From Duffyella gerundensis (GTDB lineage Bacteria; Pseudomonadota; Gammaproteobacteria; Enterobacterales; Enterobacteriaceae), in the NCBI RefSeq assembly GCF_001517405.1, contig NZ_LN907827.1, forward strand, positions 1,184,587 through 1,248,586: a stretch of DNA of 64,000 nucleotides, given 5' to 3'. Each line of letters opens with the position of its first letter. Position 1 is the stretch's first letter. Shown one piece after another: positions 45,480 through 49,254 of this stretch. The notes under the pieces are model-generated. The model made no database searches. It was not told the origin of the DNA and saw nothing but the letters and a program-made list of their open reading frames with translations. Both the position numbers and the translations under genes were made by a program.

Positions 45480-46013
45480 ATGCAATTGAACAAAGTGCTG
45501 AAGGGTTTACTGCTGGCTCTGCCAGTGATCGCAGTGGCTGCATGTAGCTCACACAAAAACAATAACAACGACCAGACCAACGGTATGGGCGCTGATGGTG
45601 CTTATGCTAACGGCGGCATGAACGGTAGCGGCAACGGCGGCAACATGTCTTCAGACGAGCAAGCTCGCCTGCAGATGGAACAGCTGCAACGTAACAACAT
45701 CGTTTACTTCGGTCTGGATCAGTATGACATCCAGTCTGACTTCGCTCAGATGCTGGATCAGCACGCGGCTTTCCTGCGTAGCAACCCATCTTACAAAGTG
45801 ACCGTTGAAGGTCATGCGGACGAACGCGGTACGCCGGAATACAACATTGCTCTGGGCGAGCGTCGCGCCAGCGCAGTGAAAATGTATCTGCAGGGTAAAG
45901 GCGTTTCTGCCGATCAGATCTCTATCGTTTCTTACGGTAAAGAGAAACCAGCTGTACTGGGTCATGACGAATCGGCTTACTCGAAAAACCGTCGTGCCGT
46001 ACTGGTATACTAA
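45480..46013 (+). CDS. pal: Peptidoglycan-associated lipoprotein Pal
   Basis: A 177-residue outer-membrane lipoprotein (E. coli 173). The lipobox AVAAC places the lipidated Cys at residue 22. A Gly/Asn-rich linker precedes the OmpA-like peptidoglycan-binding domain with [24 protein letters not shown]. The start at 45480 matches E. coli; the longer frame from 45447 has no support. It lies 46 bp after tolB and 9 bp before cpoB. Confidence 0.98.
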
Positions 46014-46022
46014 GAGAACCAC

Positions 46023-46820
46023 ATGATTAGTAGCTTCAGAACTCACCTGTTGAGTCTGTCGTTACTGGTTGGCGTAGCGGCCCCCTGGGCCGCTAATGCC
46101 CAGGCAACAATCAGTAACGTTGGCTCTGGCTCGGTTGAAGACCGTGTCACCACTCTTGAACGTATTTCTAATGCCCAGGCGCAACTTTTGCAGCAACTCC
46201 AGCAGCAGATGAACGCCAACCAAAGCGATATCGATTCGCTGCGCGGGCAGATCCAGGAAAACTCATATCAGCTAAATCAGGTGGTCGAGCGGCAAAAGCA
46301 GCTCTATCAGCAGATTGATGCGCTCAGTAGCAGCAATGCCAGCAACAGCAGCAATGCGGCTGCAGCAGATACCGGCTCGGCTACGGCAGCAGCAGCGGGC
46401 TCTGACAACAGCAGCAGCGATGCCGCCGCGGCACCGGTACAAAGCGGTGATGCCAATACCGATTACAACAACGCTGTTGATCTGGTATTGCAAAAGAAAC
46501 AGTACGATCAGGCGATCGCTGCTTTTCAGGCTTTCGTAAAAAAATACCCTGATTCTACCTTTCAGCCGAATGCCAATTACTGGCTTGGGCAGCTCTTTTA
46601 TAACAAGGGCAAAAAGGATGATGCCGCGTACTTTTTTGCCACAGTGGTAAAAAAATACCCGAAATCACCAAAAAGTGCGGAAGCGCTGTTTAAGGTCGGC
46701 GTCATCATGCAGGACAAAGGTGATAACGCGAAGGCTAAAGCAGTGTTTCAACAGGTGGTTAAGCAGTATCCCAACAGTGAATCTGCTAAGCAGGCGCAAA
46801 AACGCATAGCAGCGCTGTAA
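46023..46820 (+). CDS. cpoB: Cell division coordinator CpoB
   Basis: A 265-residue periplasmic protein (formerly YbgF) that coordinates PBP1B activity with Tol-driven constriction. A signal peptide ends near residue 26 (ANA-QATIS). A coiled coil at about 35-95 (ISNAQAQLLQQLQQQM) trimerises. A Ser/Ala-rich linker leads to a C-terminal TPR domain from about 143 (DYNNAVDLVLQKKQYDQAIAAF). Last gene of the tol-pal operon; a weak hairpin (46832-46860) follows. Confidence 0.97.
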   Translation: MISSFRTHLLSLSLLVGVAAPWAANAQATISNVGSGSVEDRVTTLERISNAQAQLLQQLQQQMNANQSDIDSLRGQIQENSYQLNQVVERQKQLYQQIDALSSSNASNSSNAAAADTGSATAAAAGSDNSSSDAAAAPVQSGDANTDYNNAVDLVLQKKQYDQAIAAFQAFVKKYPDSTFQPNANYWLGQLFYNKGKKDDAAYFFATVVKKYPKSPKSAEALFKVGVIMQDKGDNAKAKAVFQQVVKQYPNSESAKQAQKRIAAL

Positions 46821-46905
46821 AAGGCGATGAAAAGCCAGATATCGTATGATTTCTGGCCTTAGTGCGTTAAAGGTAAGCAGTTAGCGGTATTCGCGGAAAA
46901 AGGGG

Positions 46906-46933
46906 TTGCGCTCCCCCGCTAAATCAGTAATAT
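46906..46933 (+). promoter_or_regulatory. Candidate promoter of the tRNA-Lys cluster
   Basis: TTGCGC (46906-46911) and TAATAT (46928-46933) are 16 bp apart, followed by a GC-rich GCCGCCG. It lies about 45 bp ahead of the first mature tRNA end, typical for stable-RNA promoters. Confidence 0.55.
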
Positions 46934-46983
46934 ATGCCGCCGTTGCCGGGACATATCTTAAAGCGGTTCAGGTGGCATAAAGT

Positions 46984-47059
46984 GGGTCGTTAGCTCAGTT
47001 GGTAGAGCAGTTGACTTTTAATCAATTGGTCGCAGGTTCGAATCCTGCACGACCCACCA
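46984..47059 (+). tRNA. tRNA-Lys (UUU), copy 1
   Basis: A complete 76-nt tRNA including encoded CCA. Anticodon TTT at 47017-47019 in the loop CTTTTAA. Identical to copies 2 and 3. Position between cpoB and nadA equals the lysT-valT tRNA operon of E. coli, but no tRNA-Val is present here. A 31-bp spacer separates it from copy 2. Confidence 0.98.
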
Positions 47060-47090
47060 CTTTAAAGTAAATCGCAGTACACCGCGTAGC

Positions 47091-47166
47091 GGGTCGTTAG
47101 CTCAGTTGGTAGAGCAGTTGACTTTTAATCAATTGGTCGCAGGTTCGAATCCTGCACGACCCACCA
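47091..47166 (+). tRNA. tRNA-Lys (UUU), copy 2
   Basis: 76 nt with encoded CCA, identical to copy 1, anticodon TTT at 47124-47126. It is directly followed by the first 138-bp unit that ends in a second copy of the tRNA-Lys 3' end. Confidence 0.98.
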
Positions 47167-47304
47167 CTTTAACGTGAAGCACAGTGTAAAATCGTGAAGG
47201 ATGCGAACCTGCAGCAGGTTCGAGTCGAGCGAAAGCGAGACAACGTTGCGACAGCAACGGTCCGCAGGACAAGGCGAAGCCGGGTAATCCTGCACGACCC
47301 ACCA
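47167..47304 (+). repeat. tRNA-Lys-tail repeat unit A with split T arm
   Basis: A 138-bp unit that starts right after tRNA-Lys copy 2 and ends with the exact tRNA-Lys 3' end (CCTGCACGACCCACCA). Near its middle it repeats the T-arm 5' half (GCAGG-TTCGA, 47214-47223). The matching T-arm 3' half AT-CCTGC appears only after a 63-bp insert (47224-47286). The insert folds by eye into four mini-hairpins: GTCGAGC-GAAA-GCGAGAC, CGTTGC-GACA-GCAACG, GTCC-GCA-GGAC and GGC-GAA-GCC. A further hairpin CGAACCTG/CAGGTTCG lies at 47204-47222. Only one base differs from unit B. It resembles in principle the E. coli tyrT repeats, which also carry a tRNA tail, but the sequence is unrelated as far as can be judged by eye. 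Confidence 0.85.
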
Positions 47305-47335
47305 CTTTAAAGCAGATTGCAGTAAACCGCACAGC

Positions 47336-47411
47336 GGGTCGTTAGCTCAGTTGGTAGAGCAGTTGACTTTTAATCAATTGGTCGCAGGTTCGAATCCTGC
47401 ACGACCCACCA
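47336..47411 (+). tRNA. tRNA-Lys (UUU), copy 3
   Basis: 76 nt with encoded CCA, identical to copies 1 and 2, anticodon TTT at 47369-47371. Preceded by a 31-bp spacer similar to that between copies 1 and 2, and followed by repeat unit B. Confidence 0.98.
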
Positions 47412-47549
47412 CTTTAATGTGAAGCACAGTGTAAAATCGTGAAGGATGCGAACCTGCAGCAGGTTCGAGTCGAGCGAAAGCGAGACAACGTTGCGACAGC
47501 AACGGTCCGCAGGACAAGGCGAAGCCGGGTAATCCTGCACGACCCACCA
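47412..47549 (+). repeat. tRNA-Lys-tail repeat unit B with split T arm
   Basis: A second 138-bp unit, 137 of 138 positions identical to unit A (C/T change at the seventh base). Together with tRNA-Lys copy 3 it forms a 214-bp direct repeat of 47091-47304. It ends in the tRNA tail with CCA and runs directly into the cluster terminator, so both units should be transcribed with the tRNAs. Confidence 0.85.
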
Positions 47550-47553
47550 ATGT

Positions 47554-47580
47554 AAAAAGGCGCCCTAAAGGCGCCTTTTT
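47554..47580 (+). terminator. Rho-independent terminator of the tRNA-Lys cluster
   Basis: AAAAA-GGCGCC, 5-nt loop, GGCGCC-TTTTT, starting 4 bp after the last repeat unit. Confidence 0.92.
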
Positions 47581-47604
47581 GCTTTTCTGTTTTCTGGACT
47601 TACA

Positions 47605-47690
47605 GGATCTAAACCTGCTGCAGGTTTGGCTACCTGGCCGCGAGCTACATTAGCTGGTGCATCAACATCACCCGCAAGACGAGGCGCATA
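47605..47690 (+). repeat. Possible decayed copy of the tRNA-tail unit
   Basis: Downstream of the terminator a hairpin AAACCTG/CAGGTTT (47611-47627) resembles the CGAACCTG/CAGGTTCG hairpin of units A and B. It is preceded by GGAT in both cases. About 50 bp later CCGCAAGACGAGGCG (47672-47686) resembles CCGCAGGACAAGGCG of the units. Alignment in between is poor, so this is tentative. Confidence 0.35.
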
Positions 47691-47787
47691 ACGCACACAA
47701 GCCTGCGTTCTTCTGCACATCCACCAGGCGCACAAAGGCTCCCTGAAGCGTTGTTTCTGCGTTTCACACTGCGACCGCTTATCATCG

Positions 47788-49254
47788 CTACTTCCTGATG
47801 CCGTTTTTCCCCAGGCTGCGCCAGATGTGCATTACGGCGTAGCTGCGCCAGGGGCGCCAAACTGCCGAACGCTGCTCTGCCTGCTTCGCGGTCATGCCAC
47901 CGAGATTATTACGAATCACGATATCCCCCGCCGGAAAAGCGTCCGGCCAGCGCAGCGCGCGCATGGCAACATACTGCGCCGTCCAGTCACCGATGCCCGG
48001 CAGCGCTTTAAGCTGGGCGATAATTTTTTGCGGCCATGGGCAGGCATCGAGGATCAGCGCGCCGCTACTGCACGCCTCGGCCAGCGCGAGAATACATTTT
48101 GCCCGGGCGCTGATAATGCCCAACGACGCGATCTCATCCAGCGTGGCATGATGAATGCGCGTGGCGCTGGGGGGCAGTCGGCTAAGCGTCGGAAACGGCG
48201 TCTCGATCTTATCGCCAAAGGCATTGGCAAAACGGCCGCCCAGCGTGGTCGCCGCTTTCACGGTAATTTGCTGACCAAGGATGGCGCGCACCGTCAGTTC
48301 AAAACCATCAAACGCGCCGGGAATGCGCAGGCCCGGAAAATCAGCCACGCTTTTAGCCAGCAGCGGATCCTGACGCAGCGCTTCATCGATACAGGCGGGC
48401 TGCGCATTCAGATCGAAAAGATTACGCAGGCGGCGCAGCAGGGCAGGCAGCACCGGCAGCAGCGAATGGGTAAACTCAACCAGCAGCACCGGCTTTTTCT
48501 GATGATGGGTAACCCGAATCCAGCCCTGATGATGACCCAGCGCCACCGTGCGGCTATAGCTGATATCATCAACATGTTCGATATGCAGCACCGCATGGCC
48601 CCGCAGAAAGTCGAGCATAATCTGCCAGTCAAACGGCGGGCGATAGCTTAGCTCCAGCGTCGAGGTACTGTTTAGCGGCGGTGCGTGCTCATCCACCACT
48701 GTTTTGCGCAGCTGGCTGGGGGACATGCGATAACAGCGCTGAAAAACGTCGTTAAAACGACGCAGGCTGGCGAAACCGCTGGCATAGGCAATATCCGTCA
48801 CCGGCAATGCGGTCTCGGTCAGCAGCTGTTTAGCCAGCAGCAGACGACGCGTCTGACGCAGTTCAAGCGGCGAAACGCCCAGCTCTTTATGAACAATACG
48901 GCGTAGCTGGCGCAGGCTGAGATCAAACTGCGCGGCAATCTCTTCCAGGCTTTCGGTCTCATCAATGGCGCCTTGTTCGAGTCGCTGCACCAGCAGATCG
49001 GCCACCCGATGGCTGTTATCGACCGGCGCATTTCCCGGCGCCAGTTCAGGACGACAGCGCAGGCAGGGGCGAAATTTCGCCTTCTCGGCCGCTTCAGCGT
49101 TGGCAAAAAACAGGCAGTTTTTTTGTAGCGGCGCTTTTACCGGGCAGATGGGACGGCAGTAAATCCCGGTCGAGGTGACGCCGACAAAAAACACACCGTC
49201 AAAGCGCGTGTCGCGAGAAGTAAGCGCCTGCCAGGCGATATCAGAATCGATCAT
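47788..49254 (-). CDS. Ada-AlkA fusion: methyl-phosphotriester-sensing regulator with 3-methyladenine DNA glycosylase
   Basis: A 488-residue fusion. The N-terminal Ada zinc domain (about 1-75) keeps all four cysteines: Cys33 and Cys37 in GIYCRPICP, Cys64 and Cys67 in PCLRCRPE. An AraC-type HTH domain follows (about 85-190, YASGFASLRRFNDVFQ). From about 205 onwards comes an AlkA-type glycosylase with the HhH motif ALPGIGDWTAQYVA and catalytic Asp444 in FPAGD. The Ada C-terminal methyltransferase domain is absent; a separate methyltransferase gene lies divergently 157 bp away. The start at 49254 has an AAGGAG ribosome-binding site; 26 more upstream codons are open but unsupported. Not present in this location in E. 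coli. Confidence 0.93.
   Translation of the reverse strand: MIDSDIAWQALTSRDTRFDGVFFVGVTSTGIYCRPICPVKAPLQKNCLFFANAEAAEKAKFRPCLRCRPELAPGNAPVDNSHRVADLLVQRLEQGAIDETESLEEIAAQFDLSLRQLRRIVHKELGVSPLELRQTRRLLLAKQLLTETALPVTDIAYASGFASLRRFNDVFQRCYRMSPSQLRKTVVDEHAPPLNSTSTLELSYRPPFDWQIMLDFLRGHAVLHIEHVDDISYSRTVALGHHQGWIRVTHHQKKPVLLVEFTHSLLPVLPALLRRLRNLFDLNAQPACIDEALRQDPLLAKSVADFPGLRIPGAFDGFELTVRAILGQQITVKAATTLGGRFANAFGDKIETPFPTLSRLPPSATRIHHATLDEIASLGIISARAKCILALAEACSSGALILDACPWPQKIIAQLKALPGIGDWTAQYVAMRALRWPDAFPAGDIVIRNNLGGMTAKQAEQRSAVWRPWRSYAVMHIWRSLGKNGIRK

Follow-up and report, generated by a model that had tools for sequence, protein, structure and literature searches.

RtT units in a tRNA-Lys operon of Duffyella gerundensis are probably relics of a small palindromic DNA element

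The tRNA-Lys operon of Duffyella gerundensis carries two repeat units that, judged by covariance and sequence comparison, are members of the known RtT or tRNA-linked repeat family and not new in kind. Comparison across genomes makes it probable that such units are what is left of a small palindromic mobile element, of old date, passed on vertically and multiplied by recombination. There is evidence that the core of the unit is the branch of a dispersed palindromic element that became lodged in stable RNA genes. A "mobile or recombinogenic element" had been among the guesses of a first-pass annotation of this DNA, and that guess is probably right. The window, by which we mean the whole stretch of 64,000 nucleotides analysed, is ordinary by itself; the interest lies in the cross-genome comparison.

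The repeat units behind the second and third tRNA-Lys copies (47167-47304 and 47412-47549) are 138 nt long and differ at a single base, confirming the 137/138 identity noted in the first-pass annotation (Table 1). Both end in the last 19 nt of tRNA-Lys including CCA, preceded by CAGGTTCG and a 64-nt core. The earlier description of tRNA-tail repeats with a T arm split by a structured insert was thereby borne out (19/19 nt in both units); the insert folds into four hairpins with the loops GAAA, GACA, GCA and GAA, the first of which contains tandem G-A. The 5' arm of unit 1 comprises 21 nt and is 90% complementary to the 3' end of tRNA-Lys. Because the two blocks of tRNA and unit (tRNA copy 2 with unit 1, tRNA copy 3 with unit 2) differ at 1 of 214 bases, the latest step in the window is a local tandem duplication of tRNA plus unit. 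The terminator-like site behind unit 2 is the sole one detected on the plus strand within 46800-47800, in agreement with the earlier proposal that the units lie before the terminator and are probably transcribed. Downstream of this site, the decayed third unit showed 78.8% identity over 99 nt to an RtT unit of the same genome (L003; E = 1.8e-21) and scored just 5.7 bits with model R1. Both this unit and the 5' arm had been overlooked.

Table 1. Features of the tRNA-Lys operon in the window (positions count from the first base of the window)
Feature	Position	Strand	Evidence
tRNA-Lys(UUU) copy 1, no unit behind	46984..47059	+	ARAGORN
tRNA-Lys(UUU) copy 2, host of unit 1	47091..47166	+	ARAGORN
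tRNA-Lys(UUU) copy 3, host of unit 2	47336..47411	+	ARAGORN
RtT unit 1, full-length Rfam RF00391	47180..47304	+	82.7 bits; model R1 105.8 bits (unit 1 is in the alignment of R1)
RtT unit 2	47425..47549	+	82.7 bits, RF00391
5' arm of unit 1, almost the reverse complement of the T arm plus acceptor 3' strand in tRNA-Lys	47192..47212	+	Inverted repeat I3
T-arm 5' half copy, unit 1	47213..47222	+	Sequence
Four-hairpin core, unit 1	47223..47286	+	Folding; model R2 26.1 bits, E 9e-5
Tail of unit 1, final 19 nt of tRNA-Lys including CCA; one base common to the core	47286..47304	+	Sequence
Four-hairpin core, unit 2	47468..47531	+	Model R2
Intrinsic terminator-like site of the operon	47552..47582	+	Terminator search
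Decayed third RtT unit, without tail, behind the terminator	47590..47688	+	Similarity to L003 unit

Both units matched the Rfam model RF00391 over model positions 1-130 of 130 at a score far above the curated gathering cut-off of 45 bits, and the earlier statement that sequence and fold differ from rtT was therefore wrong. The outer helix and the hairpins of the RF00391 secondary structure are present in the units; in the alignment of unit 1 several positions are marked as lacking a standard pair. Unit 1 gave blastn matches in 4250 of 5426 E. coli genomes (over at least 80% of its length in two), and the 20 places listed among these matches were all annotated as RtT sRNA. In E. coli K-12, 22 tRNA-linked repeats at ten loci were described, all of which share 18-19 bp with the 3' end of the RNA that precedes them, and three of which are located behind 5S rRNA genes (Stenum et al., 2021; PMC8144298). 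These repeats have been reported since 1978 and have no known function according to the same source (PMC8144298). The identity of 18-19 bp is found in both window units, which resemble the K-12 repeats with rrA, rrB and rrF in that their 3' end equals that of the upstream stable RNA (here over 19 nt) and in their tandem arrangement in stable RNA operons. The units share with the RtT of E. coli tyrT the full-length covariance match, the tandem G-A hairpin, the CCA tail and the site behind a tRNA, but their host is tRNA-Lys and their last hairpin is shorter. The tandem G-A motif of RtT has already been published (PMC7657543, PMC8250186). The tRNA-linked repeats were described for E. coli, and mobile or dispersed relatives are unmentioned in the available text of that report (PMC8144298); a description of the core as mobile or dispersed was not found in the open-licence literature searched.

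Using the RF00391 model at E 1e-3, matches were obtained in 85 of 394 genomes of the order (65 above the curated cut-off) and in 66 of 369 genomes of the class (24 above it). Among the 152 core matches listed, from 119 named loci, at least 132 lie within 700 bases behind a tRNA. With model R1, 335 of 378 matches were tabulated; removed by hand were most matches scoring below about 39 bits and places that were cut off, had an odd length or were already included (L091 repeats L031). A tRNA host was assigned to 307 of the 335, namely Tyr, Lys, Pro, Ser, Arg, Val or Gln. Six were assigned to Val(tac), and the three of these loci that were inspected contain a short variant overlapping the next tRNA-Lys. 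A short variant without the T-arm half and the first hairpin, in which the 5' arm is joined directly to the second hairpin, was seen in lys and arg tRNA operons (L061, L064, L082, L311-L314 and L319).

The tails follow their hosts. Over 14 positions in 263 distinct units, the mean match of the tail to its own host was 13.30, compared with 8.17 to other hosts; 207 units agreed with their own host at 14/14 nt and 21 at 10 or fewer positions. A Serratia unit (L095) behind tRNA-Ser(gct) has a tail that reads like tRNA-Arg(acg) and thus does not match its host. In Neptuniibacter, Amphritea and Marinobacterium, RtT units without a tRNA gene close upstream were observed (L099, L124, L125, L176, L182 and L188); several units of these genera adjoin short displaced tRNA 3' ends of the kind left by integrated islands, and at L125 and L188 the displaced end continues straight into the RtT core. 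An enterobacterial-type RtT behind tRNA-Pro in a record titled Chryseobacterium (L195) is probably contamination.

The nearest relative of each core was determined for the 88 of 123 Enterobacteriaceae units that allowed both comparisons. In 87/88 the core was closest to a unit behind the same host in another genome. Because the cores cluster by host locus, there is no sign of recent jumping in Enterobacteriaceae, and this possibility is unsupported; within the genomes compared, the units appear to be old residents. At E. coli proK, alleles with 0, 1 or 2 units were found, and alleles with 0 and 1 unit differ by 168 bases, which is one repeat period. A copy-number difference of 175 bp in rtT was described for Salmonella (PMC2658671). 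Cargo of plasmids was rejected, as only 27 of 72,556 plasmid records matched, all typed non-mobilizable and several chromosome-sized; cargo of phages was likewise rejected (4 of 50,697 phage records). At five E. coli proK loci (L183, L286, L287, L289 and L290) the last RtT unit of the array is truncated and runs into a sequence that we take to be REP-like, and in L289 an IS3-family IS1397 lies directly behind the array. This junction could be the source of the printed link between rtT-like elements and BIMEs (PMC2965389).

The core was also detected outside of units with normal tRNA tails. In D. gerundensis and in G140 (three loci) it lies in the T loop of a copy of the tRNA-Phe 3' end, in the orientation opposite to the tRNA. 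At L173, L207 and L116 an altered tRNA-Tyr copy, short of its final bases, has the interruption in its T loop; three loci have a core behind tmRNA, and cores were found in tandem as well. At L411 a 74-nt core interrupts a partial 5S rRNA copy adjoining an intact 5S gene. The joined flanks match the intact gene at 74/76 positions and show no target duplication; the copy spans only a 3' portion of the gene (76 of 115 compared bases), and the core runs in the opposite direction to it. This copy looks like an rrn-linked repeat split elsewhere, more than like a freshly hit gene. At L317 an hsdS-like ORF of 448 residues contains an in-frame insert of 25 residues (75 nt) at the T-arm-like point GGTTTG|AATCC, again without target duplication, the boundaries being ambiguous by one base. 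The hsdS stretch lacking the insert was matched by 721 of 72,556 plasmid records, 689 of which covered at least 80% in one place. Since the hsdS insertion has no 5' arm upstream, the arm is not needed for insertion.

Dispersed copies were searched for with R2, a core-only model whose calibration was short, so that its E-values are rough. The counts per genome are lower bounds for the high values, as at most 120-123 candidates were scored per genome. In the own family the core was found in 22 of 40 genomes, with up to at least 107 matches in one, and in a family of another class in 28 of 39 genomes, with up to at least 80 matches. For D. gerundensis the own-family scan gave 8 matches, six of them near-identical and dispersed, and the window units were not among them. 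These six 74-nt cores (L420-L425) lie inside a longer, mosaic intergenic repeat. In G1025, cores are adjacent to or within an intergenic repeat whose ends resemble TATACCC and GGGTATA (L426-L429), and several core matches are paired, 111-114 bases apart. The E. coli rrn inter-terminator element next to murB, which is rrB by place and description, scored 74.5 bits with R2 and has a split 5S 3'-end copy on its flanks. The scores of the tRNA-Phe, hsdS and tmRNA/tandem loci are not independent, as loci from these groups, among others, belong to the R2 training set, to which the 5S case, the rrn element and L420-L439 do not belong. Because the window cores reach just 26.1 bits with R2, the link between the RtT branch and the dispersed branch rests on intermediates such as L003, with 62.5 bits in R2 and 71.8 in R1 (L003 is in the alignment of R1).

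None of 200 shuffles folded as well as the whole unit, whether as RNA (z = -4.85) or as DNA (z = -4.27), so the two cannot be separated by folding alone. The helices show strong covariation: in 33 units both sides change in 24 of 37 pairs, and 85.8% of cells are paired, compared with 39-44% when the alignment was slid; for 25 cores the value is 97.1%. The 324 distinct core hairpins contain 1726 Watson-Crick, 12 G-U and 15 A-C pairs, compared with 731, 25 and 3 in 87 terminators from the same loci (Fisher p = 5e-4, only indicative since relatedness makes the sequences non-independent). In two additional core sets, which overlap, the G-U:A-C ratios were 10:6 and 11:3, as against 12:15 in the main set. 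The ratio of G-U to Watson-Crick in covarying pairs was 0.165 in 6S RNA and 0.138 in RNase P RNA from the same order, and four RtT sets gave 0.011-0.071; when every predicted pair was counted, the values were 0.214, 0.126 and 0.024-0.078, respectively. In the arms, alignment counts of G-U:A-C were 190:144 in the outer helix and 52:3 in the second, where changes in the 5' arm can hardly produce A-C. The rarity of G-U in the core is a supporting, not a decisive, signal for a DNA reading.

The covarying helices would fit an sRNA gene that is co-transcribed with the tRNA, excised via the tRNA-like tail and active in trans as a sponge, as a CsrA or Hfq ligand or in the stringent response. The rrn members RrA/B/F are processed to defined transcripts that bind Hfq and CsrA (PMC8144298), and RtT RNAs of Actinobacillus gave northern signals (PMC4986893). 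The window units, which have no terminator between tRNA and unit, are of the type seen at tRNA-Tyr loci, unlike those at tRNA-Pro loci, and are probably transcribed with the tRNAs. However, among 191 distinct units at a distance below 100 nt from the upstream host tRNA, 95 follow an intrinsic terminator-like hairpin, which was obtained in only 23 of 1910 shuffled spacers, and this weakens RNA processing as a general account. By host, such a site precedes the unit in Pro 62/62, Ser 11/17, Lys 16/38, Arg 3/6, Gln 2/2, Val 1/1 and Tyr 0/65. Behind a terminator, a unit can be transcribed from the tRNA promoter only via read-through, as described for rrB. G-U pairs are rare even in the terminator-free Tyr-hosted units (2 G-U, 9 A-C), and cores were found inverted, in a 5S copy and in hsdS. 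GGA, expected in hairpin loops of a CsrA sponge, is absent from the loops of the window core, while it is frequent in those of cores parsed from loci L300 and up. For the 19 members in tRNA operons a CsrA score under 0.01 was given, and the tyrT phenotype claimed in 1991 was later retracted (PMC8144298). Taken together, we regard an sRNA gene as an unlikely explanation of the family.

Selection for DNA folding, with the unit acting as a structural site behind heavily transcribed genes for gyrase or polymerase in the manner of BIMEs, would fit the position behind stable RNA operons, the few G-U pairs and a DNA fold that outdoes those of shuffles. Loops of the GNA type are particularly stable in DNA. 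Of 304 third hairpins 283 have a GNA triloop; this number is partly circular, since the pattern used in the search asked for that loop and tolerated no more than one mismatch. An enrichment of gyrase cuts was described downstream of rRNA operons and in BIME-2, but the main text of that study mentions no tRNA, tyrT or rtT (PMC6379681). Against such a site, RNA folds beat shuffles equally and the hsdS insert looks like an insertion and not like a placed site; we consider the proposal improbable. A local chance duplication without wider meaning, to which the single difference in 214 bases might point, has a negligible probability and was rejected, as the units belong to RF00391 and the family is conserved in order and class with covarying helices, the opposite of the missing conservation and covariation that the first-pass annotation had named as its signature.

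The terminator before many units, the inverted and dispersed cores and the clean 5S and hsdS insertions favour a DNA element. The unit is a duplicated tRNA 3' end whose T loop holds a four-hairpin core of about 64-75 nt, and the core would descend from a small non-autonomous palindromic DNA element. In several lineages this element may have inserted, with no duplication of the target, into the 3' portions of genes for tRNA, tmRNA and 5S rRNA (or of copies of these), into intergenic DNA and into one or more protein genes. The clean insertions themselves are observed; that an enzyme moved the core is an inference. Entry may have occurred through the T loop of a tandem tRNA copy that then lost its 5' part, and, as the interrupted tRNA-Tyr copies suggest, a copy hit in a tandem array would persist as T half, core and tail. 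Later, each unit would have been passed on together with its locus, and recombination between the repeats would have added or removed whole periods, a gain and loss that is seen directly in the E. coli proK alleles. In the window, the tRNA transcript would include the units as spacer RNA, to be cleaved at their tRNA-like tails. The 5' arm might serve as guide or splint, might shield the extra tRNA end by pairing or might stem from template switching at the palindrome. The tRNA 3' end as a primer binding site was rejected, since the 5' arm, inspected by eye, contains no complement of CCA. Several points weigh against the relic reading: the 5S and hsdS insertions are one case each, in the own genome the dispersed copies are embedded in longer repeats, recombination between a tRNA and a unit could also have produced the interrupted tRNA-Tyr copies, and insertion alone does not account for the 5' arm or the duplicated 3' end. 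The clustering of cores by host locus, the low R2 score of the window core, the G-U:A-C ratios of 10:6 and 11:3, the absence of Y1 transposase from three of four RtT-bearing Enterobacteriaceae tested and the defined transcripts of the rrn members count against it as well.

Among known elements, REP, BIME and REPIN sequences are likewise short, palindromic, dispersed, intergenic and non-autonomous, and REP-like sequence borders the cut RtT at E. coli proK. By eye their sequence is different, and the core has four hairpins. The Y1 (RAYT) transposase, the partner of REP/BIME, was not found in G000, G140 and G097, three of the four RtT-bearing Enterobacteriaceae tested, and was present in G080; it was therefore rejected as an obligate partner. 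Y1 genes were present in 8 of 12 genomes tested, and no core was found at the four Y1 loci examined (L322-L325). Members of the IS200/IS605 family have hairpins and insert without target duplication, as seen for the 5S copy and hsdS, but the core element has no transposase gene. Palindromic elements of Rickettsia insert in frame into protein genes, as the core does in hsdS.

A wider proposal, which we hold only tentatively and consider less likely than not, is that RtT/tRNA-linked repeat units, the rrn inter-terminator element and the dispersed repeats form one family of non-autonomous insertion elements of about 75 nt with four hairpins, which make no target duplication, were moved as a folded single strand by an enzyme and prefer stable RNA genes at their 3' ends. 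On this view the Rfam 'RNA' would be the best-preserved residue, with the host-matched 5' arm perhaps once a guide or splint for the target. If the core is a mobile element, the search for RNA functions needs another null hypothesis, and the rrnB dual terminator sequence, carried on many cloning vectors (PMC8144298), would be partly explained as an insertion. It would further provide testable filled and empty sites for a small mobile element across Gammaproteobacteria and a second class.

Two other RNA features were seen in the window. Upstream of the tRNA operon, positions 45914-46052 gave a full-length match to the CpoB/ybgF RNA thermometer (RF02782, 116.5 bits), and positions 1-53 contain a partial tRNA on the minus strand that is cut by the window end.
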